This document shows, piece after piece, positions 29,896 through 58,316 of a stretch of 64,000 nt of DNA. This DNA is from Spirosoma validum (GTDB lineage Bacteria; Bacteroidota; Bacteroidia; Cytophagales; Spirosomataceae), in the NCBI RefSeq assembly GCF_014699035.1, contig NZ_JACXAA010000005.1, forward strand, positions 372,001 through 436,000, read 5' to 3'. Below the pieces are notes generated by a model. It worked only from the letters and a program-made list of their open reading frames with translations. It did no database searches and was not told the DNA's origin. Within the stretch, counting starts at the first letter, position 1, and each line of letters opens with the position of its first letter. The translations under genes and the position numbers were made by a program.

Positions 29896-29915
29896 AACCG
29901 CGCGGGCGGCCCCGT
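29896..29915. repeat. GC-rich module copy (a)
   Basis: The sequence ACCGCGCGGGCGGCCCCGTC, read from 29897, is a diverged copy of the roughly 20-bp module whose consensus is AACCGCwCCGGCGGnCCGGy. It is flanked by ATGAT-rich sequence that, on the other strand, resembles the flanks of the module copy at 32619. It lies in the gap between the preA and NCS2 genes. Confidence 0.55.
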
Positions 29916-29925
29916 CATCATTTTG

Positions 29926-31194
29926 TTAGTGGTCGTTTAGCGGCAGACCGCGCCGTTGAAACTCTTTCCAGTTCAGATATTCGTCGCCCTTCCGTTGCTC
30001 CACCATCGTGATACAGTCATCGACAGGACATACTAATTTACATAAATTACAGCCAACACACTCCTCTTCTTTGATGGAATACGTATTGAAAGGCTTGCCA
30101 TACGTCAAGTTGATGGCCTGATGGGAGGTATCCTCACAGGCAATGTAACACAAGCCGCAGTGGATACACTTGTCCTGATTGATGTTCGCAACGATGTGAT
30201 AATTAATGTCGAGGTCTTCCCAATGGGTAATGGTCGGGACAGATTTTCCGATGAAGTCGTAGATGGTTTTGAAGCCTTTTTCGTCCATCCAGTTGTTCAA
30301 TCCGTCGCACATGTCTTCGATGATGCGAAAACCGTGCTTCATAACTGCCGTACAGACCTGAACCGACGTAGCGCCCAGCAGCATGAACTCGGCAGCATCT
30401 TTCCAGGTACTGACTCCACCAATCCCCGAAATCGGCACTTGGGACGTAACAGGGTCCTGCGCAATGGTCGTCAGCATTTTCAGCGCGACAGGCTTAACCG
30501 CCGGACCGCAGTACCCGCCATAGACGGATTTTCCTGCTACGTAGGGATTCGGCACGAACGTATCCAGATCGACGCCCGTCACGGACTGAATGGTATTAAT
30601 CAGCGACAGCGCATTCGTGCCGCCTTCCACTGATGCATGGCCTGTCGGCACTACGGAATGCACATTAGGCGTCAGTTTGGTAATGACGGGAATCGTTGCT
30701 TTTTCCATCACCCATTCCACCACCATTTTGGCAATCTCCGGGTCCTGACCCACAGCTGCACCCATACCACGCTCGGTCATTCCGTGCGGACAGCCAAAGT
30801 TCAGCTCCAGGCCGTGTGCACCCGTATCTTCAACCTGTGCAATCAATTCGTGCCATTTTTCGCGCGAATTATCAGCCATAAGCGATACGACCATTGCCCG
30901 ATCGGGAAACAGACGAACGCATTCGGCAATTTCGCGGAGGTTGATATCCAGCGGTCGGTCGGAAATGAGTTCGATATTATTAAAACCCATCATTTTGGTC
31001 CCGTTAAAATCGACCGCTGAATACCGCGACGATACGTTCTTTACCTGACTGCCGAGGGTTTTCCAGACCACACCACCCCAACCGGCTTCGAAGGCACGTA
31101 GTACATTATATTTCTTATCTGTCGGTGGGGCGCTGGCCAGCCAGTACGGATTGGGCGATTTGATACCGAGGAAATTTGTGCTTAAGTCTGCCAT
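29926..31194 (-). CDS. preA: NAD-dependent dihydropyrimidine dehydrogenase, PreA subunit
   Basis: With PreT this reduces uracil and thymine to dihydropyrimidines, the first step of the reductive pathway. The 422-aa protein has an N-terminal FMN TIM barrel (PYWLASAPPTDKK, ELNFGCPHGMTERGMGAAVGQ, TKLTPNV, PISGIGGVSTWKDAAEF) and a C-terminal pair of 4Fe-4S motifs (CIHCGLCYIAC and CVGCNLCKLVCPVDDC). The active-site Cys is in NFGCPHGM. It follows preT by 60 bases, a gap largely made of a palindrome. Confidence 0.95.
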   Translation of the reverse strand: MADLSTNFLGIKSPNPYWLASAPPTDKKYNVLRAFEAGWGGVVWKTLGSQVKNVSSRYSAVDFNGTKMMGFNNIELISDRPLDINLREIAECVRLFPDRAMVVSLMADNSREKWHELIAQVEDTGAHGLELNFGCPHGMTERGMGAAVGQDPEIAKMVVEWVMEKATIPVITKLTPNVHSVVPTGHASVEGGTNALSLINTIQSVTGVDLDTFVPNPYVAGKSVYGGYCGPAVKPVALKMLTTIAQDPVTSQVPISGIGGVSTWKDAAEFMLLGATSVQVCTAVMKHGFRIIEDMCDGLNNWMDEKGFKTIYDFIGKSVPTITHWEDLDINYHIVANINQDKCIHCGLCYIACEDTSHQAINLTYGKPFNTYSIKEEECVGCNLCKLVCPVDDCITMVEQRKGDEYLNWKEFQRRGLPLNDH

Positions 31195-31207
31195 AGAATC
31201 AGTGAAG

Positions 31208-31273
31208 AATGAAGAGTGAAAAGTGAAAAATAGGTTGCGTCAGCTGTTTATTCTTCACTTTTCACTCTTCACT
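31208..31273. repeat. inverted repeat, GAAGAGTGAAAAGTGAA family, without GC module
   Basis: Arms of 25 bases at 31208-31232 and 31249-31273 match at 23 positions. The right arm encodes the last residues of PreT (LVKSEK and stop). The same arm occurs at 58268-58316 but is there interrupted by a GC-rich module. Confidence 0.8.
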
Positions 31274-32604
31274 AAAAAACTCAGTATCGCTTTTGCCCCG
31301 TCTTTTCCCGCCTGAACTGCATCGACGACTTCTTTGCCGCCGTTAACGCAATCGCCACCGGCGAAGACACCAGGAATGTTTGTAGCGCAGTTACCGTCAA
31401 TGGCCAGTTTGCCATTCCAGTTTGTCAGTTGATTGCTGCTAACCAGTTCTTCATACGGAATCTGGCCGGCGGCTTTGATCACCATGTCGACAGCCAGCGT
31501 AATAGTTTCACCGGTTTCGACGGGCGACCGACGGCCACTGGTATCGGGTACGCCTAGTTCCATTACGTTGCAAATCAGTTGTGTCACTCGTCCGTTTTCG
31601 CCTATGATTTCTTTAGGCGATGCCAGCCAGATCAGATGACACCCATCTAGTTTCGCCAGATTCAGTTCAACTTCGGTGCTGGGCATTTCGGCTTGGGTCC
31701 GGCGGTAGACAATCGTTACTTCTTTGGCTCCCAGCCGTTTCGCCTGCGTAGCCGCATCAATCGCCGTCATGCCTAATCCAATCACAGCGACTTTATCACC
31801 GACCGGTACTGACGGGTATCCTTTCTCGCGGATGTCGTAAATGAAGCGTATCGCATCTTCAACGCCCGCCAACTCTTCACCGGGAATCTCCAGATGCCTG
31901 GCCACGCCAACACCGATTCCGAGATAAACAGCATTGTAATTGGTCTGCAACTCGGCTAACGTTACGTTACGTCCCAGTTCCTGATCGTACTTGATGTCGA
32001 TTCCGCCCAGCGACGTAATGAAATTAACTTCATCTTCGCAGAATTGGGGCGTTACTTTGTAAGCAGCAATGCCATAGGTCATCAACCCACCGCCTTTCTT
32101 TTCCTTCTCGTAGATCGTTACGTCGACACCTTCCCGACTCAATACGTGCGCACAGCTTAATCCCGCCGGTCCCGCTCCTATTACGGCTACTTTCTTTCCA
32201 ACAGACGGCTTACGCTGAAATAACGGCCACTTTTGCTCAATGGCTTTTTCCGTCGAGAAGCGCTGTAATTTGGCGATTGGAATCGGCGGTTCCTCCAGAA
32301 AATTGTAAACACACGAACCTTCGCATAACTTTTCTACGGGGCAAACCTTCGAGCAGCCGCCCCCCATAATGTTCGCGTCAAAAATCGTGTAGGCCGACCC
32401 TTTGACGTTATCCGTGGTAATCTGCTTGATGAACTTGGGAATGTTGATGCTCGTCGGGCAGCTTTTTGTGCACGGGGCATCATAACAAAACAGACAGCGA
32501 TTCGCTTCCACCAGTGCCGCTTCGCGATTTTCGAACGGTGGATGGATGTCGCTGAAATTTTGCTCGTATTGTTCAGCTGTTAATCGATTGTTGAGTATCG
32601 CCAC
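31255..32604 (-). CDS. preT: NAD-dependent dihydropyrimidine dehydrogenase, PreT subunit
   Basis: This 449-aa flavoprotein feeds electrons from NAD(P)H to PreA. The N-terminal Fe-S region carries CLFCYDAPCTKSCPTSINIP and GGGCSKVCPVEKLCEGSC. The FAD site is VIGAGPAGLSCAHVLSREG and the NAD(P) site VIGLGMTAIDAATQAKRLG. The closing FAD motif is VFAGGDCVNGGKEVVDAVQAGK. The last six codons and stop fall inside the palindrome at 31208-31273, so the natural C-terminus has been replaced or trimmed by the repeat. Confidence 0.95.
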   Translation of the reverse strand: MAILNNRLTAEQYEQNFSDIHPPFENREAALVEANRCLFCYDAPCTKSCPTSINIPKFIKQITTDNVKGSAYTIFDANIMGGGCSKVCPVEKLCEGSCVYNFLEEPPIPIAKLQRFSTEKAIEQKWPLFQRKPSVGKKVAVIGAGPAGLSCAHVLSREGVDVTIYEKEKKGGGLMTYGIAAYKVTPQFCEDEVNFITSLGGIDIKYDQELGRNVTLAELQTNYNAVYLGIGVGVARHLEIPGEELAGVEDAIRFIYDIREKGYPSVPVGDKVAVIGLGMTAIDAATQAKRLGAKEVTIVYRRTQAEMPSTEVELNLAKLDGCHLIWLASPKEIIGENGRVTQLICNVMELGVPDTSGRRSPVETGETITLAVDMVIKAAGQIPYEELVSSNQLTNWNGKLAIDGNCATNIPGVFAGGDCVNGGKEVVDAVQAGKDGAKAILSFLVKSEK

Positions 32605-32618
32605 GTGTTTAGAATGAT

Positions 32619-32688
32619 GACCGGGTCGCCGGTGCGATTATGAATGATAAATGATGGTACCCAAATGGCTCATTCATCATTTATCATT
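32619..32688. repeat. inverted repeat with GC module copy (b)
   Basis: Perfect 14-bp arms AATGATAAATGATG (32643-32656) and complement (32675-32688) form the inner stem. Outside the left arm lies the module, complement ATCGCACCGGCGACCCGGTC (about 32619-32638). The module is on one side only. The element occupies the preT to nitrilase gap. Confidence 0.75.
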
Positions 32689-32691
32689 AGA

Positions 32692-33558
32692 TTACAGTTC
32701 TACCAATTTATCATACGTCTCCGGTCTTCTATCCCGGAAGAATTGCCAGACGCTACGTACTTCGTCGATCATGTCGAGATCAAAATCAGCTATCAATAGC
32801 TCGTCTTTATCTTCAGAAGCCGTGGCAAAAATCTGGCCGCGCGGATCAACGAAATACGATGAGCCATAGAACCGTCCAAGGTTCCAGGGCTTCTCTTCAC
32901 CCACGCGGTTAATGCAGCCCATGAAATAGCCATTCGCAGCGGCATGGGCGGGCTGTTCCAACTTCCATAGGTATTGCGACAAACCCGCTACGGTTGCCGA
33001 CGGATTGTATACAATCTCCGCACCATTCAGGCCCAAGCAACGCGCGCCATCGGGAAAGTGCCGGTCGTAGCAGATGTACACACCGATTTTGGCGTACATG
33101 GTTTGGAAAACGGGATAGCCCAGATTGCCGGGCTTGAAGAAAAACTTCTCCCAGAAGCCCGAGGTATGCGGGATGTGGTTCTTCCGGTATTTACCCAGAT
33201 ACGTACCATCGGCGTCGATGACGGCAGCGGTGTTGTACAGGACACCAGCCTGCTCTTTTTCATAGACGGGCACGATCATGACCATTTTGTATTTTTTGGC
33301 GTACTCGGCCATCCGATCTGTCGTTGGACCGGGAACCGACTCCGCCGAAGCGTACCAGGCACTGTTCTGCCCCGGACAGAAATACGGGGTATTAAATATT
33401 TCCTGCAAACACAAAATCTGCACGCCTTTCTCACCAGCTTCTTCAATGAGCGGGATGTGCTTTTGCACCATCGCTTCTTTAATTTCCTCAATCGTGCCTT
33501 CGCCCTCGGTCTTCGGCAGACTCATTTGTATCAATCCCGATTTAATAATTCGTGGCAT
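32692..33558 (-). CDS. nitrilase-family beta-ureidopropionase
   Basis: The product is predicted to hydrolyse N-carbamoyl-beta-alanine to beta-alanine, CO2 and ammonia. At 288 aa, the nitrilase-superfamily triad is visible: Glu in CLQEIF, Lys in GKYRKNHIPH, Cys in GVYICYDRHFPDG. The downstream segment (YNPSATVAGLSQYLWKLEQP) resembles beta-ureidopropionase and N-carbamoylputrescine amidase. The location between dihydropyrimidinase and dihydropyrimidine dehydrogenase genes decides for beta-ureidopropionase. Confidence 0.88.
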   Translation of the reverse strand: MPRIIKSGLIQMSLPKTEGEGTIEEIKEAMVQKHIPLIEEAGEKGVQILCLQEIFNTPYFCPGQNSAWYASAESVPGPTTDRMAEYAKKYKMVMIVPVYEKEQAGVLYNTAAVIDADGTYLGKYRKNHIPHTSGFWEKFFFKPGNLGYPVFQTMYAKIGVYICYDRHFPDGARCLGLNGAEIVYNPSATVAGLSQYLWKLEQPAHAAANGYFMGCINRVGEEKPWNLGRFYGSSYFVDPRGQIFATASEDKDELLIADFDLDMIDEVRSVWQFFRDRRPETYDKLVEL

Positions 33559-33583
33559 GCTTATTTCGTGTTTAATTGGTTTT

Positions 33584-33636
33584 AGCAGGGAGCAGGGCGT
33601 TTATTTTTCTCTGCCCATCGCACCATGCTCCCTGCT
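33584..33636. repeat. inverted repeat, AGCAGGGAGCA family
   Basis: Perfect 11-bp arms at 33584-33594 and 33626-33636 (AGCAGGGAGCA and complement) are separated by 31 bases. It ends two bases from the dihydropyrimidinase stop codon, in the gap to the nitrilase gene. Confidence 0.65.
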
Positions 33637-33637
33637 T

Positions 33638-35020
33638 TTAAATCTTCCCGCTCACTTTATTACGTTTAATAAACTGGCCGTATCCCTTGTCAACCAGGCA
33701 TTTATTGTCGTCAATAGTAACCTGACCACGTAGTAAAACGGTTTTTACTTTACCCGTTAATTCCCAGCCTTCATAACCCGAATAATCAACGTTCATATGG
33801 TGGGTTTTCGCGGAAAGCGTGTGTTTTTCTGCTGGATCGAAAATGACAATATCGGCGTCGCTCCCCACGGCTATGGTTCCTTTTTTTGGGAACATACCAA
33901 AGATTTTGGCGGGGTTCGTACAGGCAACTTCGACGTATTTATTCAGCGTAATTTTGCCTTTGTCGACGCCCTCGCTGTACAACAATTCCATCCGATTTTC
34001 GATGGCAGGATGCCCGTTGGGAATCTTCGAGAAATCGTCTTTCCCCATCAATTTTTGCTCCCACATGAATGGGCAGTGATCCGTAGCGACGACCTGAATC
34101 ATTCCCTGATTGATACCGGCCCAGAGTGCTTCCTGATCTTTCTTCTCCCGTAACGGCGGACTCATCACCCATTTGGCGCCGTCAATATCCTCGCCATAAA
34201 GCGACGCGTCAAGCACCAGATACTGGATGCAGGTTTCGGCAAATACTTTCTGATTCCGGCGAGTGGCATTCCGAACACCATTTAGCGCCCCTTCACAGGT
34301 CATATGCACAATGTACCCCGGACAACCCGTGTAATCGGCCATATCGGTAAAACGGCAACTGGCTTCGGCTTCGGTCACTTCGGGTTGCGAGAGATAATGA
34401 TAAAGGGGCGACATTTTCCCTTCCGACCGGTGCTTGGCAATGAGGTAATCGATCATGTCGCCGTTGGTCGCGTGAACCGTCACCATGCCGCCTTGTTTCT
34501 TCACCTCCTGCATCAGACCAACCATCTGGCTGTCATTGATCATCAATGCTCCTTTATAGGCCATAAAGGTTTTGAACGACGTAATGCCTTCGTTCTCAAC
34601 CATCTCTTTGATTTCAGCTTTCGAATTTTCGTTAAAATCCGTTACGGCCATATGAAAACTGTAATCCCCAACGGCGGTTCCGGTAGCGCGGGAATTCCAT
34701 TCGGCCAGGGCTTCTTTTAGCGAATGCCCTTGTTTTTGCAGAACAAAATCAATCACGGTCGTTGTGCCGCCAAACAGAGCTGCGCGTGTGCCGGTCTCGT
34801 GTGTATCGCTCGAAAACGTACCCATGAAGGGCATATCCAGATGCACGTGGGGGTCAATACCGCCCGGAAATACTAATTTACCAGTGGCATCAATGACCGT
34901 ATCGGCCTGAACGGGCAGGTTTTTCCCAATGGCCGAAATCGCTTCGCCCTCAATGAAAATATCCGCAACGTAATCGTCGGCCGCCGTAACGATCCGACCA
35001 TTTTTAATCAAAAGCGACAT
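33638..35020 (-). CDS. hydA: dihydropyrimidinase
   Basis: The product opens dihydrouracil to N-carbamoyl-beta-alanine. The start at 35020 (MSLLIKNGRIVTAADDYVAD) gives 460 aa, the usual length; a longer frame from 35062 is not supported. The binuclear-metal residues are in GGIDPHVHLDMPF, TSFKTFMAYKGAL (carboxylated Lys), VTVHATNGD, YIVHMTCEG and QVVATDHCPF. It forms the second step of the reductive pyrimidine pathway encoded next to it. Confidence 0.95.
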   Translation of the reverse strand: MSLLIKNGRIVTAADDYVADIFIEGEAISAIGKNLPVQADTVIDATGKLVFPGGIDPHVHLDMPFMGTFSSDTHETGTRAALFGGTTTVIDFVLQKQGHSLKEALAEWNSRATGTAVGDYSFHMAVTDFNENSKAEIKEMVENEGITSFKTFMAYKGALMINDSQMVGLMQEVKKQGGMVTVHATNGDMIDYLIAKHRSEGKMSPLYHYLSQPEVTEAEASCRFTDMADYTGCPGYIVHMTCEGALNGVRNATRRNQKVFAETCIQYLVLDASLYGEDIDGAKWVMSPPLREKKDQEALWAGINQGMIQVVATDHCPFMWEQKLMGKDDFSKIPNGHPAIENRMELLYSEGVDKGKITLNKYVEVACTNPAKIFGMFPKKGTIAVGSDADIVIFDPAEKHTLSAKTHHMNVDYSGYEGWELTGKVKTVLLRGQVTIDDNKCLVDKGYGQFIKRNKVSGKI

Positions 35021-35070
35021 AGTTAATTTATCGTTTATGACCACTCCCGTGGAGAGCCTCAACTACAAAT

Positions 35071-35189
35071 TCTACTACAAAGAATTCAGGCCCGTCGGGC
35101 CGATATCTTTGTAGTAGAAAAGTTCAAATTCTGCATCAGCAAAAGCTCCATAGGAGCGACATCTTTTCTATTTCGCTACTATGGAGCTT
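35071..35189. repeat. two adjacent palindromes upstream of hydA, near the Y1 transposase
   Basis: The first has perfect 12-bp arms TCTACTACAAAG (35071-35082) and complement (35107-35118) around GGCCCGTCGGGCC (35089-35101). The second has 17-bp arms, AAGCTCCATAGGAGCGA (35143-35159) and complement (35173-35189), with one mismatch. Related AGCTCCT-type palindromes occur on the other side of the transposase gene. They may be its substrates. Confidence 0.75.
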
Positions 35190-35275
35190 GAAACTCATTG
35201 GCGTCTTTTTAACTACAAAGATTTCGCCACTATGTGGCTACACACGAATTGATTCAATTCAATGATACACGAATT

Positions 35276-35737
35276 TCAATTTATCCATTCAAATAAATAT
35301 CGTTCATCGTATTCAACCTCAAACTTTTCCAAAAACGCTAAATACTCATCTTTAAAGCTCCTTTTCTGATGATGCACTGGCTGTGACAGAATATAGTTTA
35401 TCACGTTGTCTAAATGAGATTTAGAGTACGAAAAAGCGCCAAAACCTTCCTGCCAATTGAATTTATTTTTCAATAATTTTCGGTCATTAATCCAAGCCGA
35501 CGAATTTGCTTTTATATCCCTCACTAAATCAGATAATGAGATATTCGGCTTTACACTTAAAAGCAAATGTGTATGGTCAGGCATACAATATAGGGCTAAA
35601 ACTTTTTGACTTTTACCATTTACAATCCCGCAGATATATTTCTCCAGTTCATCTCGAAATTCTTCTTTTATCAAGTTCTCTCTACCCTTTACGGCAAAGA
35701 CGAGTTGAATATAAATTTGCGAATACGTATTTGGCAT
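35276..35737 (-). mobile_element. tnpA: single-domain Y1 transposase (IS200/IS605 TnpA or RAYT-like)
   Basis: This 153-aa protein is a HUH nuclease. The HUH pair reads PDHTHLLL (about residues 54-61), and the probable catalytic Tyr lies in VINYILSQ in the C-terminal helix. Conserved features of the Bacteroidota group are NTYSQIYIQLVFAVKGR at the start and WQEGFGAFSYSKS. No TnpB or accessory gene is beside it, and both sides carry palindromes with AGCTCC-type cores. It looks intact and interrupts the nucleobase operon between the NCS1 and hydA genes. Confidence 0.88.
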
Positions 35738-35819
35738 TTGAGCTTACGGTATTTATTTTGTTTTAAAGGCCAATTGGGCCGAATCATTGTAGCAAAATTG
35801 GGATTCGCAATTTCAGCTA

Positions 35820-35864
35820 AGCTCCTTAGGAGTGATATTGAAAAGATGCCGCTCCTAAGGAGCT
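35820..35864. repeat. perfect palindrome next to the Y1 transposase
   Basis: Perfect 13-bp arms AGCTCCTTAGGAG (35820-35832) and CTCCTAAGGAGCT (35852-35864) flank a 19-base loop. Each arm has its own inner palindrome (CTCCTTAGGAG, imperfect). It resembles the 35143-35189 element and may mark the other end of the mobile unit. Confidence 0.75.
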
Positions 35865-35922
35865 AAAAACGGCTCAATCACCTTGCTTTTCTACAAAGAT
35901 TACAGCCCTATGGGCTTAAAAT

Positions 35923-37428
35923 TCAGTCAGCTAACGTAACAGCGGACTGCTGAAAGTTAGAAATCGAAGACCGACTATTCATCAAACCCATATAAACTAA
36001 ACCGCTTACGAAAAAACCAACAAACCAGGCATAGTTGTAAAGATTTGAAATCCAGATCGGTACGCTGTCAGCAGGAATCACCTGAATCGTGGTGAGAAAG
36101 CCTGGAATGTTGGGAATAATACCAGCTAACAAAGCGATGATCGCTGCGGAGTTGAACCCGTTTTTGTAGCTATACATCCCGATTGTGCTGTACAGATCAT
36201 TCAGGACAAGCTTTTGTTTACGCAGGAAGAAATAATCCGCAATCATAATCCCACCCACCGGTCCGAGCAGGCTGGAGTAACCAACCAGCCAGGTAAAAAT
36301 GAAGCCTGTCGGATCGGCGATTAACTTCCAGGGGAAAATCAGAATCCCAATGACTCCCGTAATGTACCCTCCCTTCCGAAAGTCAATTTTTGCCGGAGCC
36401 AGATTCGCAAAATCATTGGCCGGACTGACAATGTTTGCGGCAATATTTGTCGCCAATGTGGAAATCGCCACTGCAATCATGGCGATGCTTACGAGAAGTT
36501 TACTCTCAAATTTCCCGGCCAATACGAGCGGGTCCCAGATCGTAGTGCCGTAAATAATAGTGGTTGCCGACGTAACGACGACGCCGATAAACGAGAAAAG
36601 GGTCATAGAGGTTGGAAGGCCAATAACCTGTCCGCGTACCTGCGCTTGCTGACTGGTGGCGTAGCGGGTGAAATCCGGAATGTTCAGCGATAACGTAGCC
36701 CAGAAACCAACCATGCCGGTTAACGCTGGAAAGAAAAAAGCAAAAAATGCAGCCGAGTCCGAGAATTTAGCGGGTTGCTCCAGAATGGGTCCGAGACCGT
36801 TTCCGGCAGAAATAGCCCACCAGAGTAACGCTATTGCAGCTATAGGCAAAAAGAACGCTTTGAATACCAGAAGCTTACGAATACTATCAACGCCGAGGTA
36901 AACGACGTACATGTTCAGCAGCCAGAACAAAAAGAAACAGATAGCCGGACCCGTTTGTAAGCCAAACGAAGCCGGAAAAACCGGTGGCAACGTTTCCAGC
37001 GACGGAATCCACAGCCGAAGCATCTGATAGATAGAAAACCCACCAATCCAGGTCTGAATACCAAACCAGCCACAGGCCACAATGGCACGTAGCAACGCCG
37101 GAACATTCGCGCCACGAGTGCCGAAACTGGAACGTACTAAAACCGGAAACGGAATACCGTATTTGGCTCCAGCACGCCCGTTCAACACCATCGGAATCAG
37201 CACAATGGTGTTGCCCAGAAAGATGGTGAAAATAGCCTGCCACCAGTTCATACCGCCCTGGATCAGCGAACTCGCCATCATATACGTTGGAATACACAAA
37301 CTCATGCTGATCCAAAGAGCCGCATAATTCCAGGTAGTCCACGTTCGTTTCGACGCGGGAATAGGTGCCAAGTCCTCACTATAAAGCGTTGACGATTCGG
37401 ATATAGTTGCTTCCGTTACTTCCTGCAT
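35923..37428 (-). CDS. NCS1-family nucleobase:cation symporter
   Basis: This is a membrane transporter for nucleobases or related ring compounds (uracil, cytosine, allantoin, hydantoin). The start at 37428 (MQEVTEATISESSTLYSEDL) gives 501 aa. NCS1 hallmarks are YSEDLAPIPASKRTW, WNYAALWISM, RSSFGTRGANVPALLRAIVACGWFGIQTWIGG in TM3, and NIPDFTRYATSQ in TM6. Substrate is uncertain. Its position between the nucleoside hydrolase and dihydropyrimidinase genes suggests uracil or thymine uptake. Confidence 0.9.
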   Translation of the reverse strand: MQEVTEATISESSTLYSEDLAPIPASKRTWTTWNYAALWISMSLCIPTYMMASSLIQGGMNWWQAIFTIFLGNTIVLIPMVLNGRAGAKYGIPFPVLVRSSFGTRGANVPALLRAIVACGWFGIQTWIGGFSIYQMLRLWIPSLETLPPVFPASFGLQTGPAICFFLFWLLNMYVVYLGVDSIRKLLVFKAFFLPIAAIALLWWAISAGNGLGPILEQPAKFSDSAAFFAFFFPALTGMVGFWATLSLNIPDFTRYATSQQAQVRGQVIGLPTSMTLFSFIGVVVTSATTIIYGTTIWDPLVLAGKFESKLLVSIAMIAVAISTLATNIAANIVSPANDFANLAPAKIDFRKGGYITGVIGILIFPWKLIADPTGFIFTWLVGYSSLLGPVGGIMIADYFFLRKQKLVLNDLYSTIGMYSYKNGFNSAAIIALLAGIIPNIPGFLTTIQVIPADSVPIWISNLYNYAWFVGFFVSGLVYMGLMNSRSSISNFQQSAVTLAD

Positions 37429-37518
37429 TTTTCCGTTTTTGGTTTCTGATTTGAGCTTTGACAAAGTTTTGAACTTTGTCAAAGTTATTCTGCCGGTAAA
37501 CTGTAAACTACAAACTAT

Positions 37519-39045: not shown

Positions 39046-39052
39046 TGAAAAG

Positions 39053-39146
39053 TTTATAGAACACAGATTTTTATGATGATTATGATTCACGCAGATCATA
39101 ACTAACCATAATCATCATAAAAATCTGCCGGTCCGCCGGTGCGGTT
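39053..39146. repeat. inverted repeat with GC module (c) in one arm only
   Basis: Perfect 20-bp inner arms AGATTTTTATGATGATTATG (39065-39084) and complement (39107-39126). Outside the left arm the sequence continues ATAGAAC-AC. Outside the right arm, on the complement, it reads ATAGAAC, then CGCACCGGCGGACCGGC, then AGATTTTT. So the right arm has 17 bases where the left arm has two. The same arm with module on both sides occurs at 49950-50065. Confidence 0.88.
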
Positions 39147-39153
39147 CTATTGG

Positions 39154-46555: not shown

Positions 46556-46561
46556 AAAGAG

Positions 46562-46608: not shown

Positions 46609-46687
46609 AACCGCAAAGAGCACAGAGGACTCTTGGCGACCTTCGCGATTATCTCTGCGTACTTTGCGCTGGGTTGCCGGAGCGGTT
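46609..46687. repeat. inverted repeat, AACCGCAAAG family, with GC module (d) in one arm
   Basis: The left arm reads AACCGCAAAGAGCACAGAG (46609-46627). The complement of the right arm reads AACCG, then an extra CTCCGGCAACCCAGCG, then CAAAGTACGCAGAG. The extra bases align with the GC module (15 of 20 identities to copy c over AACCGCTCCGGCAACCCAGC). The family's module-free form is at 26852-26925. Confidence 0.7.
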
Positions 46688-49222: not shown

Positions 49223-49250
49223 CACCACTGAATTTCGTATCTTGTCTATT

Positions 49251-49943: not shown

Positions 49944-49949
49944 CGAAAG

Positions 49950-50065
49950 AAAATAGAACCGCACCGGCGGACCGGCAGATTTTTATGATCAATCTGATTT
50001 AAATGATCTTCGAAAATCATAAGCTATCATAAAAATCTGCCGGTCCGCCGGTGCGGTTCTATTTT
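49950..50065. repeat. 40-bp perfect inverted repeat with GC modules (e, f) in both arms
   Basis: Arms at 49950-49989 and 50026-50065 are perfectly complementary. Each contains the module AACCGCACCGGCGGACCGGC (49957-49976) or its complement (50039-50058), followed by AGATTTTTATGAT. This is the symmetrical counterpart of the 39053-39146 element, where only one arm has the module. Confidence 0.92.
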
Positions 50066-50093
50066 TCAGCCATTACCCTAAACCTAAATCCAC

Positions 50094-50477: not shown

Positions 50478-50531
50478 ACAGTTTACTACTTGATAAATAC
50501 ATTAGTCAGTTAATCAGCATATCCCCGAAGA

Positions 50532-50972: not shown

Positions 50973-50994
50973 TTACTTCCAGTTTGGCATCTAC

Positions 50995-52209
50995 TCATAA
51001 CTTCAACTTCACCCCCACTTTATTCAATTGCCCCGTAATCCAGGCGCACAGGATTGCAAAGAGGAAGGATTTCAGTAAGCCAACCCCACCGACGAGCACA
51101 GCTTCTGGTAAATGAAGGTGCAGAAGCGTCATACCGGCGTAGGCGAAGTACGGAATCAGGTAGCATAGTAACGTATCGGTTCCGGCGGGTTTGATTAGGG
51201 TGAACCAGTTTGCTTTTCCGCCTACGTCCGTGAGCCAATAGATGGCCATGAAGGCCAGAATCGTAAAGGCGCTGCACAAGAATAGCCAGGCGGGTGTTTC
51301 TCTCAGTTTGCTGATTCCCCAGAACTGACGCGTATACAGTGCTAATCCAATCAGTGCTACGGCGATGACTAGAAAGACCAGTGTCATTTGTTTGTTATCT
51401 CCTCGTTGGCGATACTCCTGAAAAAGCGTTGAAATCACGACGCCCCCCATCGTCAGGCCAACTAACGTACCACCGCTAATCGCGCCGGGAATAAGATGAA
51501 CCGCTTCTGGGAACAAATCTGCACTATTCGCTACGCTTAGAAGCGCGAAAGCAACCCAGGCAAGTACCAGAACAGGCATTCGATTTCGGGCGACCACCGT
51601 AACTAAAGCTGCAGCCAGATACGACCAGCCTATCAAGCCCAGAATCCCCCACCAGTGCGTGGCAAAACGTGGAGCCTCTTCGCCCCGATAAATGAACGCC
51701 AGCGCCAGCAAGATAGCCACGCCCAAGCCTTTACTCGTAGTTACAATCCATTTCGCTACGGTTTTGGGATATGTATTCCAGATCAGAATGAACGATAGAC
51801 ATGACAAGGTATTCCAGACACCCCGAGTCAAACCCGTCGCGGATTCGTTAATCGACTCTCCATTGACTAGAAAGACGCCCATAACCAGCAAGGCAATCGA
51901 GCGCATGATAACATGGCCAACCAACGTAGCATCCGAATCTCCTTTTTTTCGCCGGGCGTCAATGGCATACGGCAATGACATCCCTACGATAAACAGAAAC
52001 GCTGGAAAGACCGAATCGGCTAGTCCCATCCCGTCAGCGTCGTGCGATACGTGTTCCAGCCAGGCAGGTATGTCTGTCAATGACCATAAGTCATTGACAG
52101 AAATCATCAGGACCATCGTTAGGGCCCGCAATATGTCGATAGACGTAACCCGTACAGACGTGACGGATAGCGTATTTGATTGAGTGAGCAATGTTTCTGG
52201 CTGAGGCAT
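50995..52209 (-). CDS. DUF5009 / NagX-like membrane acyltransferase
   Basis: The start at 52209 (MPQPETLLTQ) gives 404 aa with about ten to eleven membrane spans. A TTG at 52221 would overlap the stop of the upstream gene as TTGA and is also possible. The N-terminal RVTSIDILRALTMVLMISVND and ADSVFPAFLFIVGMSLPYAI are typical of the heparan-alpha-glucosaminide N-acetyltransferase/NagX group (DUF5009), often linked to amino-sugar use. The hexosaminidase gene is 2 kb away on the other strand. Coupled to the CPBP protease gene upstream. Confidence 0.82.
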   Translation of the reverse strand: MPQPETLLTQSNTLSVTSVRVTSIDILRALTMVLMISVNDLWSLTDIPAWLEHVSHDADGMGLADSVFPAFLFIVGMSLPYAIDARRKKGDSDATLVGHVIMRSIALLVMGVFLVNGESINESATGLTRGVWNTLSCLSFILIWNTYPKTVAKWIVTTSKGLGVAILLALAFIYRGEEAPRFATHWWGILGLIGWSYLAAALVTVVARNRMPVLVLAWVAFALLSVANSADLFPEAVHLIPGAISGGTLVGLTMGGVVISTLFQEYRQRGDNKQMTLVFLVIAVALIGLALYTRQFWGISKLRETPAWLFLCSAFTILAFMAIYWLTDVGGKANWFTLIKPAGTDTLLCYLIPYFAYAGMTLLHLHLPEAVLVGGVGLLKSFLFAILCAWITGQLNKVGVKLKL

Positions 52210-52217
52210 ACACGGAT

Positions 52218-52961
52218 TCAAACTAACGCATAAAAGATACAGACGTTCATCGTCAAGTTAAACGCAACGTGGGCAGCAATAGCCGGATAAATCGAATCAC
52301 TTTTTCGTTTTATCCAGGCAAACAGGCAGGCGGTCAGGAACATAAGTAGTACCCATACACTCCCCGAAACGGGACGAAAAACAAATTGATGATTCACCAG
52401 ACTGAGGCCATGATGACAAAGATGAATAATGCCAAAGAACAACGACTCGCTAACCACACTCGCCCGATAATTGAATCGTGTAGACAACGCATCCTGCAAG
52501 AATTCTCGGAAATAAATTTCTTCCCCAACTGGACTAAAAATAAGAGCAGGTATCGTGATGATCAGAAAGGCCCCCTTGCTATCCAGAGGTACAGTATTTG
52601 CATACGCATTTTTTATAGTTACGTACCAATTGTCGAGGCTTGTATCAAAGAAGGCTTTACCTAACAGAAAACAGAATAAGGCAGCAACCATTCCAGTCAG
52701 CAAAGCCAACCCATAAAACGATTGGCTCTTACTGCGCGAGAAGCCCATTTTCTGCCGTTGAGACCGGTTGAGAAAGATAAATGGCATCAACGCCATGAGT
52801 ATAAAACCCAACGGAAGAACGAACCGGTAGGTAAGTGGACCCAGGATTCCGACTACCCTGACAACAGCGAAAATGATCCCAAACAATAGGGCAATCGGTA
52901 GATAATACGTACCGGTAGCCGTTTGATCTCGGGATGTCAATTGCTGTAGCATTAAGCACAA
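52218..52961 (-). CDS. CPBP-family intramembrane metalloprotease
   Basis: This 247-aa membrane protein (start 52961, or Met4 at 52952) has several membrane spans. CPBP (Rce1-like) motifs are in order: EEIYFRE (EExxxR, about residue 147), FFGIIH (FxxxH) and HVAFNL near the C-terminus. Bacterial members act in peptide maturation, bacteriocin self-immunity or membrane-protein turnover; which applies here is unknown. The stop overlaps or lies just before the start of the NagX-like gene, forming a two-gene operon. Confidence 0.88.
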   Translation of the reverse strand: MCLMLQQLTSRDQTATGTYYLPIALLFGIIFAVVRVVGILGPLTYRFVLPLGFILMALMPFIFLNRSQRQKMGFSRSKSQSFYGLALLTGMVAALFCFLLGKAFFDTSLDNWYVTIKNAYANTVPLDSKGAFLIITIPALIFSPVGEEIYFREFLQDALSTRFNYRASVVSESLFFGIIHLCHHGLSLVNHQFVFRPVSGSVWVLLMFLTACLFAWIKRKSDSIYPAIAAHVAFNLTMNVCIFYALV

Positions 52962-52986
52962 TTTTACTGATGAAGCGCTTTTGTAT

Positions 52987-53029
52987 AAAACAAATCAGGC
53001 CCGATAATCTACCGAGCCTGATTTGTTTT
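52987..53029 (-). terminator. terminator of the M61 peptidase gene
   Basis: Perfect 14-bp arms AAAACAAATCAGGC (52987-53000) and complement (53016-53029) overlap the stop codon of the M61 gene and end in a T-rich tract on the minus strand. Confidence 0.8.
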
Positions 53030-54884
53030 ACTTAATGTACAACCACTTGTTATAGAGTGCCTTTTGGGCAGCTGTTACGTTCGGCAAGGGCGTTAGCCGA
53101 TAACTTGCTAAAGGATTCGGCGTTAACGTAACGGGTATTTTACGTAACAAGCCCGACCGGTTGACTAATACGTTGAGCGTTTCACCAACCTGCCGATTGC
53201 TAATGAGACGTAACAAATCATCACCCACCCGAACGCTGTCTACTGAAAGGATTTCGTCGCCTACGTTTAGGCCGTCGGTGTAGGCGGCTGATCCGCGCCG
53301 AACACTCGTAACGGTCGATTTCCCGCCCGCAGTTGATACACCTACACCCAAAAATCCGTCCTGCGTTTTTGACGCTACGTTGGTCAGTTGCAGGCCAACC
53401 GGTTCAAAATATGTATTGTAACTGATCGGGTCAGCCGAGTTGACGCCAATGTTGAAAAAATCGTCGAGACTACGTCCGGCCGTTTGCTCAGCCGCTTTCC
53501 GGAATTCATCATCTGTAAACCCGCGCTTCTGTTTTTTATAGTACTCGTTATACAGGAATCGCATCAGGTCGTCCATGCTACGTTCGCCATTATTACCTGC
53601 CAGAATTGCCAGATTCAGCAACGTTCCCAATACGCTTCCTTTGCTGTAGTAGGAAATGGTCGTATTGTTTGAGTTTTCGTTGGGCCGGTACCCTTTAATC
53701 CACGCATCCCAGCTCGATTCAGCCGCCGACTGCACGCGCACGCCTGGTTGATTTTCGATACCCGTAATGTCGTTGGCAACAATATTGAGGTACGTTTCGG
53801 GTGAATGGAAGCCCGCCCGACGTAGAATGTAATCTTCATAAAACGACGTACAACCTTCTGACAACCAGAGCATGTGCGTATAATTCTCATTCTCGTAATC
53901 GAACGGTCCAAGTGCGACGGGCCGAATACGCTTTACGTTCCAGAGGTGAAAATATTCGTGCGCTACCAGGGTTAGAAAGCCTTTGTAATTCGCTTCCGTT
54001 GAATAGGCATTCCGATACGTTTCGAGCGTCGTCGAATTCAGGTGCTCCAGCCCCCCGCCACCGGTAGGGATATGGTGCACGATGAAGGTGTAATGTTTGC
54101 AGGGATGTTCACCGATGACCATTGCAGCGGCTTCACAAACGCGCTTATAATCAGCCTGTAAGCGCTTTTCGTCGTATTCCACATCACCAAACATAGCTAC
54201 GGTATGCGGCACGCCCGACGCTGTGAAACCAAAAGTTCGGTGGTTGCCGATTTCAATGGGTGAATCCACCAGCAAGTCGAAATCTGGCGCTTCGTAGGTA
54301 AAGTTGGCACCGGCTACGGGTTCTAGCCCGGTTGCTACGTATTTCCAGGATTTGTAGGGTTGCACAACGACACGTAACGGAATGGTTTTCAGCGCGTCGT
54401 GGTACATGAACGTACTGGCGGGTGTTACGTACCCATGATCGGCATCCACAAAGTTCGTCCGTACAGTAAGTTCGTTGGCATAAACGCGATAGCGAATTGT
54501 TACGTTGTCATCAGCTGTGTACACGCGCCAGGCATTCTTTCGGATTTTCTCGCTTTTAACAGGCTTTCCAGCAGCCGTTGCCGTAAAGGCCTCGACGTTT
54601 TTGGCGTACTCCCGGATCAGATACGAGCCGGGCGTCCAGACCGGCATTTTGATATCCAGATACCCGTTTTTTTTTGCATTCGTCGCCGTTGCACTATTTT
54701 TCAGCTGCATCTCCACGTCAAAATAATGGGTCTGCGGCTCGGGCATCGAAAGCACGTAGGTTATGCCCGGCGATGCTGCTGAGGGGGTTTCGTCATTAGT
54801 AGATAGGGGCTTTGCAGTTGATGAAAGGAAAATAAAAAATGTCCAGACAGTAAGTAAATACAGGAGCCGGGCGTTTTTTTTCAT
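53028..54884 (-). CDS. M61-family (glycyl aminopeptidase-like) metallopeptidase with PDZ domain
   Basis: The start at 54884 (MKKNARLLYLLTVWTFFIF) gives a signal peptide and 618 aa; the longer frame from 54962 is rejected. An N-terminal beta-domain (YVLSMPEPQTHYFDVEMQL, WTPGSYLIREYAKNVE) precedes the catalytic domain, where zinc is bound by HEYFHLWNVKRIRP (about residue 311) with LSEGCTSFYEDY supplying the third ligand. A C-terminal PDZ domain covers about 525-605 (FLGVGVSTAGGKSTV, AYTDGLNVGDEILSVDS). It is probably a periplasmic aminopeptidase. Confidence 0.92.
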   Translation of the reverse strand: MKKNARLLYLLTVWTFFIFLSSTAKPLSTNDETPSAASPGITYVLSMPEPQTHYFDVEMQLKNSATATNAKKNGYLDIKMPVWTPGSYLIREYAKNVEAFTATAAGKPVKSEKIRKNAWRVYTADDNVTIRYRVYANELTVRTNFVDADHGYVTPASTFMYHDALKTIPLRVVVQPYKSWKYVATGLEPVAGANFTYEAPDFDLLVDSPIEIGNHRTFGFTASGVPHTVAMFGDVEYDEKRLQADYKRVCEAAAMVIGEHPCKHYTFIVHHIPTGGGGLEHLNSTTLETYRNAYSTEANYKGFLTLVAHEYFHLWNVKRIRPVALGPFDYENENYTHMLWLSEGCTSFYEDYILRRAGFHSPETYLNIVANDITGIENQPGVRVQSAAESSWDAWIKGYRPNENSNNTTISYYSKGSVLGTLLNLAILAGNNGERSMDDLMRFLYNEYYKKQKRGFTDDEFRKAAEQTAGRSLDDFFNIGVNSADPISYNTYFEPVGLQLTNVASKTQDGFLGVGVSTAGGKSTVTSVRRGSAAYTDGLNVGDEILSVDSVRVGDDLLRLISNRQVGETLNVLVNRSGLLRKIPVTLTPNPLASYRLTPLPNVTAAQKALYNKWLYIK

Positions 54885-55139
54885 ACGGAAACAGGAATAC
54901 CTTCGTTTTTTGTCCAGATTAAACGTGAATTTTGCCAATTCATTGGCGAAACTACGACGCAATCCAGAGAATAAGTAGTTTCATGTTTAAAGTTTCTGGT
55001 TTCAGTTGAACGTATCGATGTGTCAAGTGGAAGGTTTAACGTTCTAATGGGCCTGCCCTCTATCGAACTACGTGACAATCTGAAACCTGGGATGTTGAAC
55101 CTTAAACCTCAACCCAACGTAAAATCGTTGTTTTCATCT

Positions 55140-58100
55140 ATGCCCTATTCACTCACCCACACGGGTCAATGCCAGTCAGGCTATTTTTCGCTAAGTCGGC
55201 TAGTGTTTACCCTGACCCTGGGGTTGCTTTCTTCACTATCCGTTACTGCTCAGCGAACGCAGAGTTACGCTGAACCAGATTATCACTACCGCAACGGGAT
55301 CGAACTGTTCGAGCGAGCGAATTACGCAGCGGCCCGTTACGAATTTCGGCAATATCTCGAACCTCGCCGGGGTGATGGTTCACAAACGCTGTTTAACGGC
55401 AACGATCAAAATGCCGTCGAAGCCGAGTATTATATCGCCCTGGCCAGTTTGTACATCGATGAGCCCGGTGCAGAGCTGCTCGTTGACCGGTTTGTCAAGA
55501 ATCACAGCCAGCACCCCAAAGCGGCACAGCTTTACGGCGATCTGGGAACGTACTACTATACCCGTCAGAACTATGCAAAGGCCATTGACTTCTTAGAAAA
55601 AGCCGTTGCTCAGGGAGGTAGTAGTTCTCAACAGATTACGTACAAATACCAGTTGGGTCTCTCCTATTACAATACGCAGAATTTGCAGAAAGCGTTGCCA
55701 CTGCTAAACGAGGTAAAACTCGATACCAGTTCACCCGACGCTCCGGCAGCTTCGTATTACGCCGGGGTCATCAACTTCCGCAATCGTAACTTTAACGAAG
55801 CCGTTGCCGATTTCCGACGTATCGAGAAAAACCCAACGTATCAGAATCAGGTGCCAAACTGGATTGCGCAGGCGCTTTATCGGCAACGCCGGTTCGATGA
55901 ATTACTGGCCTATACTGAACCGCTCCTTAAACGAAATAGTGGTTCGGCCATGAGCGAGGTGGCTCTTTATACGGCCGAGGTGTATTATCAGCAAAATCAG
56001 TTTGCTAAAGCAATTCCGTATTACAAGCAATACATTACAGCGGCTGGAGCAAAAGCGCCCGGTGCAGTCAAGTTTCGGTATGGGAAATCGCTGTTCCGTA
56101 CGGGCGCATATAACGACGCTATTACGCAGTTAAAAACACTGGCAGGGGGTAAGGATACGACGGCTCAGTACGCAGCTTACACCCTGGGGGTTAGCTACTT
56201 ACAGACTCAGAATCCAAGTTATGCTTTAAATGCATTCGATCAGGCTGGCCGGTTAACTTTTAATCAGGAAATTCAGGAGGAAGCTCGCTTTAACCATGCC
56301 AAACTTCAATTAGATCAGAACAATGGAGCTGACGCTGTAAAGGAATTAACGGCCTTTCTGAAGCAGTATCCGAATAGCAAATTTGAGAACGAAGCGAATG
56401 AACTGGTTGGCGAAGCGTACTTTGCCTCAAACAATTACCCGGCAGCTATTGCCTATATTGAAGGGCTAAAAAAACGGACACCCAAAATTAACGCTACGTA
56501 TCAGCGATTGACCTACAACCAGGGTGTCAATGATTTCAACGCTGAACGCTATCCGCAGGCGGTGGCGAATCTGGATAAGTCACTGAAATTTCCGGTTGAT
56601 ACTGAATTACAACAAGCTGCACAGTTCTGGAAAGGTGAATCCTACTCAGCCGGTAAACAGTACGATACGGCCATTCCAATTTATGCCAGCGTATCTAAGT
56701 CGGGTTCGACCTACGCTACGAAAAGCTTATATGGACTCGGCTATGCGTATTATAACAAGAAAGACTACGGCAATGCCGCTACGTATTTCCGCGATTTTGT
56801 AGGCAAACGAGCCAGCGTTGACGACCAGGCGCAGGTCCAGGATGCTACCATTCGCCTGGCGGACTCGTATCTGGCGACAAAGCAGTATGAAAATGCGCTA
56901 CGATCCTACGATCAGGCAATTGCACAGAATGCCGCTGACAAAGATTATGCCTCGTATCAGAAAGCCGTTACGTTAAGTTACCTTGGTCGTGACACCGAAG
57001 CGAAATCTCAGTTTGATCAGGTACAGCGCCAGTATCCGAACTCACGTTTCGTTGACGAATCACTATTTCAACGGGCTAACGTCGATTTCGAGAAGGGTTC
57101 GTATCAGGTGGCCATTCAGGGCTTTACGAAGCTGATTCAGGACAAACCCAATAGTTCACTAATTCCGGCGGCCTTGCTGAAACGCGCCATTGCTTACGGA
57201 AACATACAGCAGTATGATCCGGCGGTTGCCGATTACAAACGAATTCTGGATAACTACGGTAACTCAGAACAGGCCCAAAGCGCATTGCTTGGCATTCAGA
57301 ATGCGCTGAGTGATGCTGGTCGACCAGAAGAGTTTTCGCAGGTGCTCGGCCAGTACAAGAAAAGCAATCCGGGCAGTACCGATGTTGAGCGCGTGCAGTT
57401 TGACAACGCCAAGGATATTTACGCGAATGGGAAATACGCTCAGGCCATTCAGTCGCTGCAAGCGTTCATGCAGGAATACCCCAACAGTCCAAGCACGAAC
57501 GAAGCTCGCTATTACATAGCGGAGTCTTATCGGCAAACCAACGACCCTGCGAATGCCCTTCGGTACTATAATCAAATCATTGCCGACAACAAATCTGATT
57601 ATCTAATACGTGCTGCCACGCGGGCTGCGGACCTGGAATCAAAGCAGAAAAATTATCCGCGTGCCATTCAGAATTATCGGGTTATTCTGAGCAAAGCCAG
57701 CGGAAAACCCGATCAGGTTACGGCCCAACTAGGCATGATGGATACGTATTTCGTTTATCCAAAGCTGGATTCCGCGGCCATTCTTGCCCGCGACATCGTA
57801 GCGGCTGGAAGCGTGGTGCCGGGTGCTCAAAATCGGGCTCAACTTATGCTGGGCAAAGTAGCCCTTGCGAAAAGTGATTATAAAACGGCTCAAACGGAAT
57901 TCGATAAAACCATCGCGCTAGCCAAAGACGTGAATGGCGCTGAAGCCCTCTATCATCTTGGTGAAATCCAGAACAAACAGAAAAAGTACAAAGAGTCGAC
58001 GGCTACGTTGCTGAAGTTTAACGAACAGTTCGCCGACTTTGAGTACTGGAAAGGCAAAGCGTTTATTCTGGTTGCCGATAACAACGTAGCGCTAGACGAA

Positions 58101-58208
58101 ACGACGCAGGCTAAGGCCGTTCTGAATTCAATCATCGAAAACTCATCCGACGAAACCATTATCGCCGAAGCCAAACAAAAATTGGCCACGCTTGAAAGCA
58201 AAAATTAA
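55140..58208 (+). CDS. large tetratricopeptide-repeat exported protein
   Basis: The start at 55140 (MPYSLTHTGQCQSGYFSLSR) gives 1022 aa with an export signal ending near LSSLSVTAQ; further upstream starts lack a signal-like context. The whole mature chain is TPR/TPR-like helices in tandem (for example NYAAARYEFRQYLEP, YYNKKDYGNAATYFRDFVG, NGKYAQAIQSLQAFMQEYPN), several of the Tol-Pal YbgF/BamD type. It lacks a lipobox, unlike the T9SS TPR lipoprotein PorW/SprE. It is first in a same-strand trio with an outer-membrane barrel and an HU/SPOR protein, suggesting an envelope scaffold. Confidence 0.85.
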   Translation: MPYSLTHTGQCQSGYFSLSRLVFTLTLGLLSSLSVTAQRTQSYAEPDYHYRNGIELFERANYAAARYEFRQYLEPRRGDGSQTLFNGNDQNAVEAEYYIALASLYIDEPGAELLVDRFVKNHSQHPKAAQLYGDLGTYYYTRQNYAKAIDFLEKAVAQGGSSSQQITYKYQLGLSYYNTQNLQKALPLLNEVKLDTSSPDAPAASYYAGVINFRNRNFNEAVADFRRIEKNPTYQNQVPNWIAQALYRQRRFDELLAYTEPLLKRNSGSAMSEVALYTAEVYYQQNQFAKAIPYYKQYITAAGAKAPGAVKFRYGKSLFRTGAYNDAITQLKTLAGGKDTTAQYAAYTLGVSYLQTQNPSYALNAFDQAGRLTFNQEIQEEARFNHAKLQLDQNNGADAVKELTAFLKQYPNSKFENEANELVGEAYFASNNYPAAIAYIEGLKKRTPKINATYQRLTYNQGVNDFNAERYPQAVANLDKSLKFPVDTELQQAAQFWKGESYSAGKQYDTAIPIYASVSKSGSTYATKSLYGLGYAYYNKKDYGNAATYFRDFVGKRASVDDQAQVQDATIRLADSYLATKQYENALRSYDQAIAQNAADKDYASYQKAVTLSYLGRDTEAKSQFDQVQRQYPNSRFVDESLFQRANVDFEKGSYQVAIQGFTKLIQDKPNSSLIPAALLKRAIAYGNIQQYDPAVADYKRILDNYGNSEQAQSALLGIQNALSDAGRPEEFSQVLGQYKKSNPGSTDVERVQFDNAKDIYANGKYAQAIQSLQAFMQEYPNSPSTNEARYYIAESYRQTNDPANALRYYNQIIADNKSDYLIRAATRAADLESKQKNYPRAIQNYRVILSKASGKPDQVTAQLGMMDTYFVYPKLDSAAILARDIVAAGSVVPGAQNRAQLMLGKVALAKSDYKTAQTEFDKTIALAKDVNGAEALYHLGEIQNKQKKYKESTATLLKFNEQFADFEYWKGKAFILVADNNVALDETTQAKAVLNSIIENSSDETIIAEAKQKLATLESKN

Positions 58209-58316
58209 TGAAGAGTGAAGAATGAAGAATGAAAAGTAAGAACAATGGTCTGTCTTCAGAAATAGACTTTATTCTTCACTTTTCACCGCTCCGGCGGCCC
58301 GGTCTTCACTCTTCAC
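58207..58316. repeat. inverted repeat, GAAGAGTGAA family, with GC module (g) in one arm
   Basis: The left arm begins AATGAAGAGTGAAG (58207-58220). The right arm reads TTCTTCACTTTTCA (58272-58285), the module CCGCTCCGGCGGCCCGGT (58286-58303), then CTTCACTCTTCACTA. In the related repeat at 31249-31273 the two flanks are contiguous. It lies between the TPR and outer-membrane barrel genes. Confidence 0.85.

Follow-up and report, generated by a model that had tools for sequence, protein, structure and literature searches.

A 16-nucleotide, two-hairpin DNA module that probably moves as a non-coding micro-element in Spirosoma and related bacteria

What is the short GC-rich module that recurs, in and beside unrelated palindromes, in a stretch of Spirosoma validum DNA? 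The stretch analysed here, which we call the window, comprises 64,000 nucleotides (nt) of contig NZ_JACXAA010000005.1 (positions 372,001–436,000) and contains seven copies of a module matching AACCGCWCCGGCGGNCCGGY, with 0–3 mismatches each, against a mean of 0.02 copies in shuffled sequences (none of 100 reached seven). A first-pass annotation had listed all seven sites, at positions that agree with ours to within one base, and had described the module as a very small element that inserts into larger palindromes or is exchanged between them. The idea of a very small inserting element is borne out by 38 groups of filled and empty sites with a near-constant insert size and by a structure-blind scan for insertions, and we conclude that the module is probably a non-coding mobile micro-element of 16 nt, which can fold into two overlapping hairpins and inserts without target duplication.

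Filled sites were compared with empty homologues, in which the two flanks are joined without the module; each site group required at least 15 of 20 identical bases on both flanks. In the 38 independent groups, the net gain is exactly 16 nt in 36 and 15 nt in 2. One base at the empty site corresponds to 17 at the filled site in the net +16 groups, and the empty site has two bases in the two net +15 groups, both of which belong to the CCGC[AG]CCGGCGGACCGG subtype that is also found in the window copies at 39128, 49959, and 50040. None of the 38 groups has a flank duplication, that is to say, insertion proceeds without duplication of the target. The empty homologues were found in paralogous transposase genes, palindromes, and related species, and several filled/empty pairs inside IS110-family transposase DNA are 96–99% identical across species. 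Two kinds of transposase serve as hosts, one of the IS110 family and one of an IS4/5-type DDE family; the loci were taken because they carried modules or resembled loci that do, so this mix of hosts is not a random sample. Decayed IS110-family transposase DNA on one contig (L063:800–2500, contig C23) has at least nine module copies within 1.7 kb, in both orientations. In genome G401, one repeat occurs both with a module of the GTGG/CCAC subtype and, elsewhere, without it (L202 and L217; empty form TTTA-T-TCGTAAATC), which suggests fairly recent activity of the module.

A scan that was blind to both sequence and structure returned 156 distinct insertions of 5–40 nt, with peaks at 16 nt (51 inserts, of which a few may be one event counted twice, since near-duplicate flanks were merged imperfectly before counting), 15 nt (23), and 14 nt (16). 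The register of each insert was set by its best pairing, and shuffled inserts were handled alike. All seven scored pairs are formed in 37 of the 51 16-nt inserts, six in 9, five in 4, and four in 1; shuffled inserts reach seven pairs in 0.6% and six pairs in 8.6% of cases. The 15-nt inserts form seven pairs in 5 cases (2.6% when shuffled) and six pairs in 4, and the 14-nt inserts form seven pairs in 1 and six pairs in 5 (0.3% and 3.6% when shuffled). The remaining 15- and 14-nt inserts look like ordinary indels or decayed copies. Smaller peaks at 6 nt (22) and 12 nt (11) may be in-frame coding indels.

The 17-nt core (consensus YCGCWnnGGCGRnCCnn) covaries as two overlapping 4-base-pair (bp) hairpins. 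We number the putative target base 1 and the insert 2–17; hairpin 1 then pairs bases 1–4 with 9–12 around a predicted loop at 5–8, and hairpin 2 pairs bases 6–9 with 14–17 around a predicted loop at 10–13. Changes in the core are linked, bases 6–7 with 16–17 and base 1 with base 12. Among 175 non-redundant sites that were selected by fixed core letters only, Watson–Crick pairs occur at 1–12 in 152, at 6–17 in 146, and at 7–16 in 166, compared with 99, 69, and 88 expected under independence, and all three occur together in 127 of the 175 sites versus 1 of 13 in the reversed control. The fixed letters of that pattern mask changes at 2–3/10–11, a limit from which the structure-blind scan is free; there, bases 1–3 of hairpin 1 vary as CCG, TCG, TGG, CGC, GCG, and CAG, with the complements at 10–12.

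We aligned 34 distinct 17-mers, 29 from the 16-nt inserts of the structure-blind scan and five from other module sets; four inserts were left out (three with odd registers and one degenerate). In this alignment, 95.8% of cells are paired versus 76.3% in shuffles, and both-sided changes occur in 38 cells versus 8.8; every slid register is less than 49% paired. The pairs 3–10, 8–15, and 9–14 are nearly invariant and therefore little informative, and bases C4, G8, G9, and C14 are invariant. The invariance of C4, G9, and C14 would be expected if G9 has to remain free to pair with one partner or the other. The covariation figures of the 175-site set and of the structure-blind scan are unfiltered; the empty/filled, 110-site, flank-coupling, and 136-copy sets keep only pairing copies, and mutual information at 1–12, 6–17, and 7–16 is inflated in them. 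For a full two-helix scan, the reversed-sequence control was invalid (239 vs 247), because the fold reads similarly backwards, and only the xxGG subset (191 vs 11) was used. The 15-nt and 14-nt layouts showed little or no excess in that subset (17 vs 7, 3 vs 1, and 6 vs 11), and the case for the 14-nt class therefore comes from the insertions themselves.

Base 5 is missing from the 15-nt class, and both base 5 and base 13 are missing from a few 14-nt inserts, so that 4-base loops become 3-base loops. We read the two hairpins as mutually exclusive, because both use G9, a 4–9 pair is also available, and bases 12 and 14 are directly adjacent in the 14-nt form. A tight pseudoknot, with both helices present at once, is a possibility for the 16-nt form; the shared G9, the 4–9 pair, and the missing linker in the 14-nt form are better fitted by exclusive hairpins, which we prefer. 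A third hairpin (11–13 with 17–19) was rejected: its arms are complementary, yet positions 12 and 18 covary weakly. Position 13 is identical to position 6 in 104 of 136 copies (C/C, A/A, T/T), and G6 occurs mostly with A13. A base triple of 13 with the 6–17 pair was also considered; it fits T, C, and A but not G, with which 13 is mostly A.

The first base of hairpin 1 is the base of the empty target in 24 of the 36 net +16 sites. A C target has become C1/G12 in 16 sites and T1/A12 in 1, and a T target has become T1/A12 in 8 and C1/G12 in 5 (Fisher p 0.0016). A subtype with C12 has an unpaired T1 in five distinct inserts of the structure-blind scan; if this T comes from the target, then it is the target that supplies base 1. 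In 110 sites, position −1 holds A in 69% and position 18 a pyrimidine in 90%. Apart from base 1, coupling between flank and element is strongest at position 18 (via base 5) and at −1 (via bases 13 and 6). Watson–Crick pairs are avoided just below hairpin 1 (−1 with 13; 9 of 136 copies vs 29.5 expected) and just below hairpin 2 (5 with 18; 22 of 136 vs 46.9), and each hairpin therefore tends to end exactly at 4 bp. This plainer avoidance replaced a reading of the two contacts as wobble pairs.

The window shows how the module is placed relative to palindromes:

29898–29914, plus strand: module copy of the CGGG/CCCG subtype (CCGCGCGGGCGGCCCCG), all seven pairs formed
31196–31232, minus strand: module-free relative of the 58286 host (TTTTCA-C-TCTTCA), with a single target base in place of the 17 nt at the filled site
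32621–32637, minus strand: module copy of the T1/A12 subtype (TCGCACCGGCGACCCGG), adjoining a 14-bp inverted repeat at 32643–32688
39064–39127, no strand: host inverted repeat with 24-nt arms (39064–39087 and 39104–39127), the left arm being the module-free counterpart in the empty-site alignment
39128–39144, minus strand: module copy of the net +15 subtype (CCGCACCGGCGGACCGG), on the right arm only of the inverted repeat, the left arm being empty
46669–46685, minus strand: degenerate copy of the module (CCGCTCCGGCAACCCAG) in which three of the seven pairs are missing, not scored for an inverted repeat
49959–49975, plus strand: module copy carried by the left arm of an inverted repeat (49950–50065) with perfect 40-nt matching
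50040–50056, minus strand: module copy carried by the right arm of that repeat (49950–50065)
58286–58302, plus strand: module copy (CCGCTCCGGCGGCCCGG) within a TTCACTCTTCACT-type palindrome

Several parts of the first-pass description hold for these copies: the host repeats are of different families (the CATCATTTATCATT, CAGATTTTTATGAT, AACCGCAAAGAGCACAGAG, and TTCACTCTTCACT types), single-arm copies are real (the left arm at 39064–39087 is empty and the right arm carries the module), and so are module-free relatives (31196–31232, for the host at 58286). Others hold in part. All copies lie between long open reading frames, as the intergenic placement proposed there implies; the copy at 46669–46685 is nevertheless inside a 148-amino-acid minus-strand frame that overlaps the end of a topoisomerase-like gene and is taken to be spurious. 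The claim that every copy sits in or beside an inverted repeat fails for 29898–29914, where no convincing repeat was found (score 8, below the cut-offs). The window also has a 37-nt inverted repeat of the GTCATTCCGACGAAGGAGGAATCTC type (19489–19571), a module-free relative of module-carrying palindromes on other contigs. A Y1 (HUH) transposase frame (35276–35737, minus strand; PF01797, 92.8 bits) lies beside imperfect palindromes (35070–35239) containing GTAGTAGAA, and the two are a probable repetitive extragenic palindrome (REP)/REP-associated tyrosine transposase (RAYT) locus separate from the module. Nine of the ten neighbouring proteins scanned belong to ordinary metabolic or housekeeping families, and the tenth has no Pfam match.

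Beyond the window, specific nesting in palindromes did not hold up. Of 58 copies from the 60 loci that two genome searches returned regardless of context, 14 are in or beside an inverted repeat and 19 are in open frames of at least 100 amino acids; in stretches chosen for having modules, 17 of 56 copies are in inverted repeats. Most copies are thus outside inverted repeats, the outcome that the first-pass annotation had itself named as contrary to its proposal. The comparison with random non-coding sequence shows an enrichment: the other 39 copies, which are non-coding, include 11 in inverted repeats versus 114 of 1260 random non-coding positions (approximately 3-fold; Fisher p 0.0007). Palindromes are therefore enriched but not required as module sites, and many copies are inside IS110- and IS4/5-type transposase genes. 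The enrichment arises partly because module-carrying palindromes are themselves amplified; the same filled palindrome type recurs at three loci (L069, L072, and L073) and, in another genus, at L219. Copies on two arms occur in both mutual orientations (49959 plus/50040 minus in the window; 10053 minus/10108 plus in L072) and are therefore not one fixed REPIN-like unit (REPIN, REP doublet forming a hairpin). The simpler reading is that two-arm copies would arise by copying of one arm onto the other or by later amplification of a filled palindrome, and exchange between palindromes is not needed.

The distribution of the module is patchy, as for mobile DNA. The S. validum genome (8.2 Mb) has 148 matches to YCGCNNNGGCGRNCCNN versus 20 for the reversed pattern. 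In the genus, the pattern is matched in all 36 genomes and in most is clearly above the reversed control, the exceptions being G009 (42 vs 45) and G020 (25 vs 35), with no excess, and G021 (78 vs 57), with little. Within the family, genera differ: some have a strong excess (G438, 311 vs 6; G334, 239 vs 10; G380, 189 vs 14) and others none, and many but not all genera carry the element. A stricter pattern gave a strong excess in 3 of 137 genomes of the order outside the family (G557, 59 vs 0; G454, 46 vs 2; G481, 23 vs 1) and a suggestive one in G501 (7 vs 1), G485 (5 vs 0), and G508 (4 vs 0). In a sample of the phylum, a narrow pattern was matched in 6 of 296 genomes, two of which are all the genus genomes sampled; the other four have 1–2 matches each, no more than the reversed pattern yields across the set. 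The dominant self-consistent subtype differs by genome (GTGG/CCAC in G401; CGGG/CCCG and GCGG/CCGC in G334). Tandem modules were seen in G334, with the CGGG subtype followed by the GCGG subtype at a 19-nt step (L198, L203, and L208 are one place), and at G359:C3:3256–3338, with three copies at a 32-nt step; these are perhaps insertions next to or into an older copy.

In the mechanism that we propose, a unit of 16 nt (also 15 nt and, less surely, 14 nt) would insert behind a single target base, in most cases a pyrimidine with A before it, and would not duplicate the target. A single strand could fold into hairpin 1 or hairpin 2, which we infer to be alternative states. The 5′ junction would lie within the first pair of hairpin 1, formed by target base 1 and element base 12, and the 3′ junction exactly at the base of hairpin 2. 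The two hairpins may thereby mark both junctions for an enzyme that acts in trans to cut and join single strands, and base 12 may bias the target base that is accepted. The leading candidate for this enzyme, unproven and rather doubtful, is a Y1 (HUH) transposase of the IS200/IS605 or RAYT type. A further reading, which we put forward tentatively, is that the module is a two-state hairpin replicator of 14–16 nt whose own bases encode the rule for cut-out and insertion and which is moved by a class of enzyme not yet recognised as a transposase.

Several observations weigh against this account. On the side of the enzyme, the surroundings of the family's 30 best Y1 transposase matches (96,528 bases in total) contained no module, and the one Y1 frame seen near modules, at C4:78721–78993 of the S. 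validum genome, is truncated and lies in a cluster of decayed transposases. Y1 genes occur in 109 of the 121 family genomes, irrespective of how common modules are there, and of the 12 genomes with no Y1 match, five still have modules above the control (G024, 64 vs 25; G403, 97 vs 63; G374, 33 vs 15; G032, 35 vs 20; G371, 15 vs 5). No strand preference by chromosome half was seen in G001 (76 pattern matches, background matches included, one of the positions being off by 4 bases). On the side of the fold, 14 of the 51 16-nt inserts fall short of the full seven pairs, the folding energy of single variants as single-stranded DNA (ssDNA) is mostly not unusual (z −0.1 to −2.6), and the identity of positions 13 and 6 is left unexplained by two hairpins alone. 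On the side of the target, the best empty homologue lacks the base now at position 1 in 12 of the 36 net +16 sites, a mismatch that occurs even in close pairs (5 of 18 with at least 36 of 40 identical bases). In these 12 sites, T, A, or G has become C1/G12 ten times, T has become G1/C12 once, and C has become T1/A12 once; at some of them the fitting base is present in other homologues. The mismatches therefore mean that homologues have drifted, that the base was corrected afterwards, or that the base is sometimes brought in.

Other origins of the inserts have to be weighed against mobile ssDNA. The paired structure could as well be the fold of a tiny RNA, a copy of which is joined into transcripts or nicked DNA and then reverse-transcribed, and covariation cannot separate RNA from ssDNA; Elhai and colleagues reportedly suggested an RNA-mediated route in 2008 for some small dispersed repeats of cyanobacteria. 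Insertion into messenger RNA is not favoured by the mixed orientation of the module, which is sense in 16 and antisense in 25 of 41 host frames (p 0.21; of 50 events, these 41 have an open frame of 200 amino acids or more in an empty homologue), and we regard the RNA-mediated origin as unlikely. Templated repair is another possibility: polymerase snap-back or end joining would leave hairpin-like fillers of similar size at breaks, no copy descending from another. The inserts are indeed self-complementary, and the dead genes and palindromes in which they occur are probable places for breaks and template switching. Such repair junk would not be expected to have a conserved core (C4, G8, G9, C14), identical subtypes at unrelated sites within one genome, or a size concentrated at 14–16 nt, and this origin is very improbable; copying from the flanks was judged by eye only.

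Selection for a function would make the module a protein-binding site, a terminator, or an RNA switch. GC-rich intergenic hairpins can be terminators or attenuators, and two exclusive hairpins resemble a switch. Copies within transposase genes nevertheless point either way, homologous sites may have or lack a copy, and an Rfam scan of the window gave no family at its threshold; a selected site is accordingly a still more remote explanation than repair. The least probable explanation, raised as an alternative in the first-pass annotation, is that several palindrome families have long contained the module as an internal part and have lost it from some arms. Both arms are indeed filled at 49959/50040 in the window and at L068, L069, L071, L072, and L073. 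Apart from the placement of most copies outside inverted repeats, empty sites with exactly one target base versus 17 nt occur in unrelated hosts, including transposase genes, and an ancestral origin is excluded wherever an empty arm or paralogue exists.

If mobility is correct, the module would be among the smallest mobile DNA elements known, and as a two-state replicator it would be the smallest. The lower size bound for a unit that spreads by its own sequence would be reduced, on the basis of covariation and dozens of filled/empty sites, and the movement of elements of approximately 20 nt would become directly testable through predicted cut points, a target rule, and a fold. The module would account for part of the intergenic repeat clutter and for some short insertions in transposase genes of Spirosoma and its relatives, in which insertions of 14–16 nt should not be taken for random indels.

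The module can be compared with several known small elements. Miniature inverted-repeat transposable elements (MITEs) and the GC clusters of fungal mitochondria, which are short GC-rich inserts in poorer DNA, are likewise non-coding and, as proposed for the module, depend on an enzyme in trans. Bacterial MITEs are far larger than the module, which has neither their terminal inverted repeats nor their target duplication. REPs and REPINs, with their RAYT (TnpAREP) enzymes, resemble the module in being short, numerous single-strand hairpins, often in inverted pairs. The junction geometry of the module resembles the flexible choice of one TnpAREP system, in which CT or CA cut sites are read by a GTAG guide (PMC8266576). 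REP singlets are described as likely remnants (PMC3116915). Single module copies, by contrast, were evidently inserted, and no module lies near the 30 Y1 genes. The module consensus also differs in having no GTAG or CGTC tag and no single palindromic core.

Like elements of the IS200/IS605 family, which insert without target duplication, the module leaves none (net +16 in 36 and net +15 in 2 of 38 groups). Its junction geometry resembles the logic of IS608, in which guide bases of the element itself pair with the cleavage sites and so select them, partly through non-canonical contacts and base triplets (PMC5934647). Guide-like pairing may also occur in the module: in sequence counts, base 12 follows the target base at 24 of 36 sites, and bases 14–17 vary along with 6–9. 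IS608 targets the lagging strand (PMC6006769); no strand bias was seen for the module in the one genome tested. It differs further in having no transposase gene, no coding capacity, no subterminal palindrome of that kind, and no four-base fixed target, and in that Watson–Crick contacts outside the stems are avoided rather than used.

The closest precedent is provided by the small dispersed repeats (SDRs) of cyanobacteria (Nostoc and relatives). As reportedly described by Elhai and colleagues in 2008, SDRs are very small, precisely inserted, and sometimes located inside other repeats and minitransposons; they are said to be 21–27 nt long, to be cyanobacterial, and to have a predicted fold with compensatory changes. 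The earlier statement that no description of such nesting is known was too strong, because nesting in other repeats belongs to this description. SDR5 is located precisely between bases 3 and 4 of HIP1 (PMC4390886). The module too is a dispersed insert of the approximately 20-nt kind with compensatory structure, sometimes within other repeats, a likeness of kind and not of descent. Among the matches listed in the open-licence literature, there was no description for Spirosoma or its relatives. The module is set apart from the SDR description by its length of 14–16 nt, its occurrence in the Spirosoma family, its two overlapping hairpins, and its element-paired target base; within the open-licence literature searched, its size, family, two-hairpin design, and target rule appear to be new.

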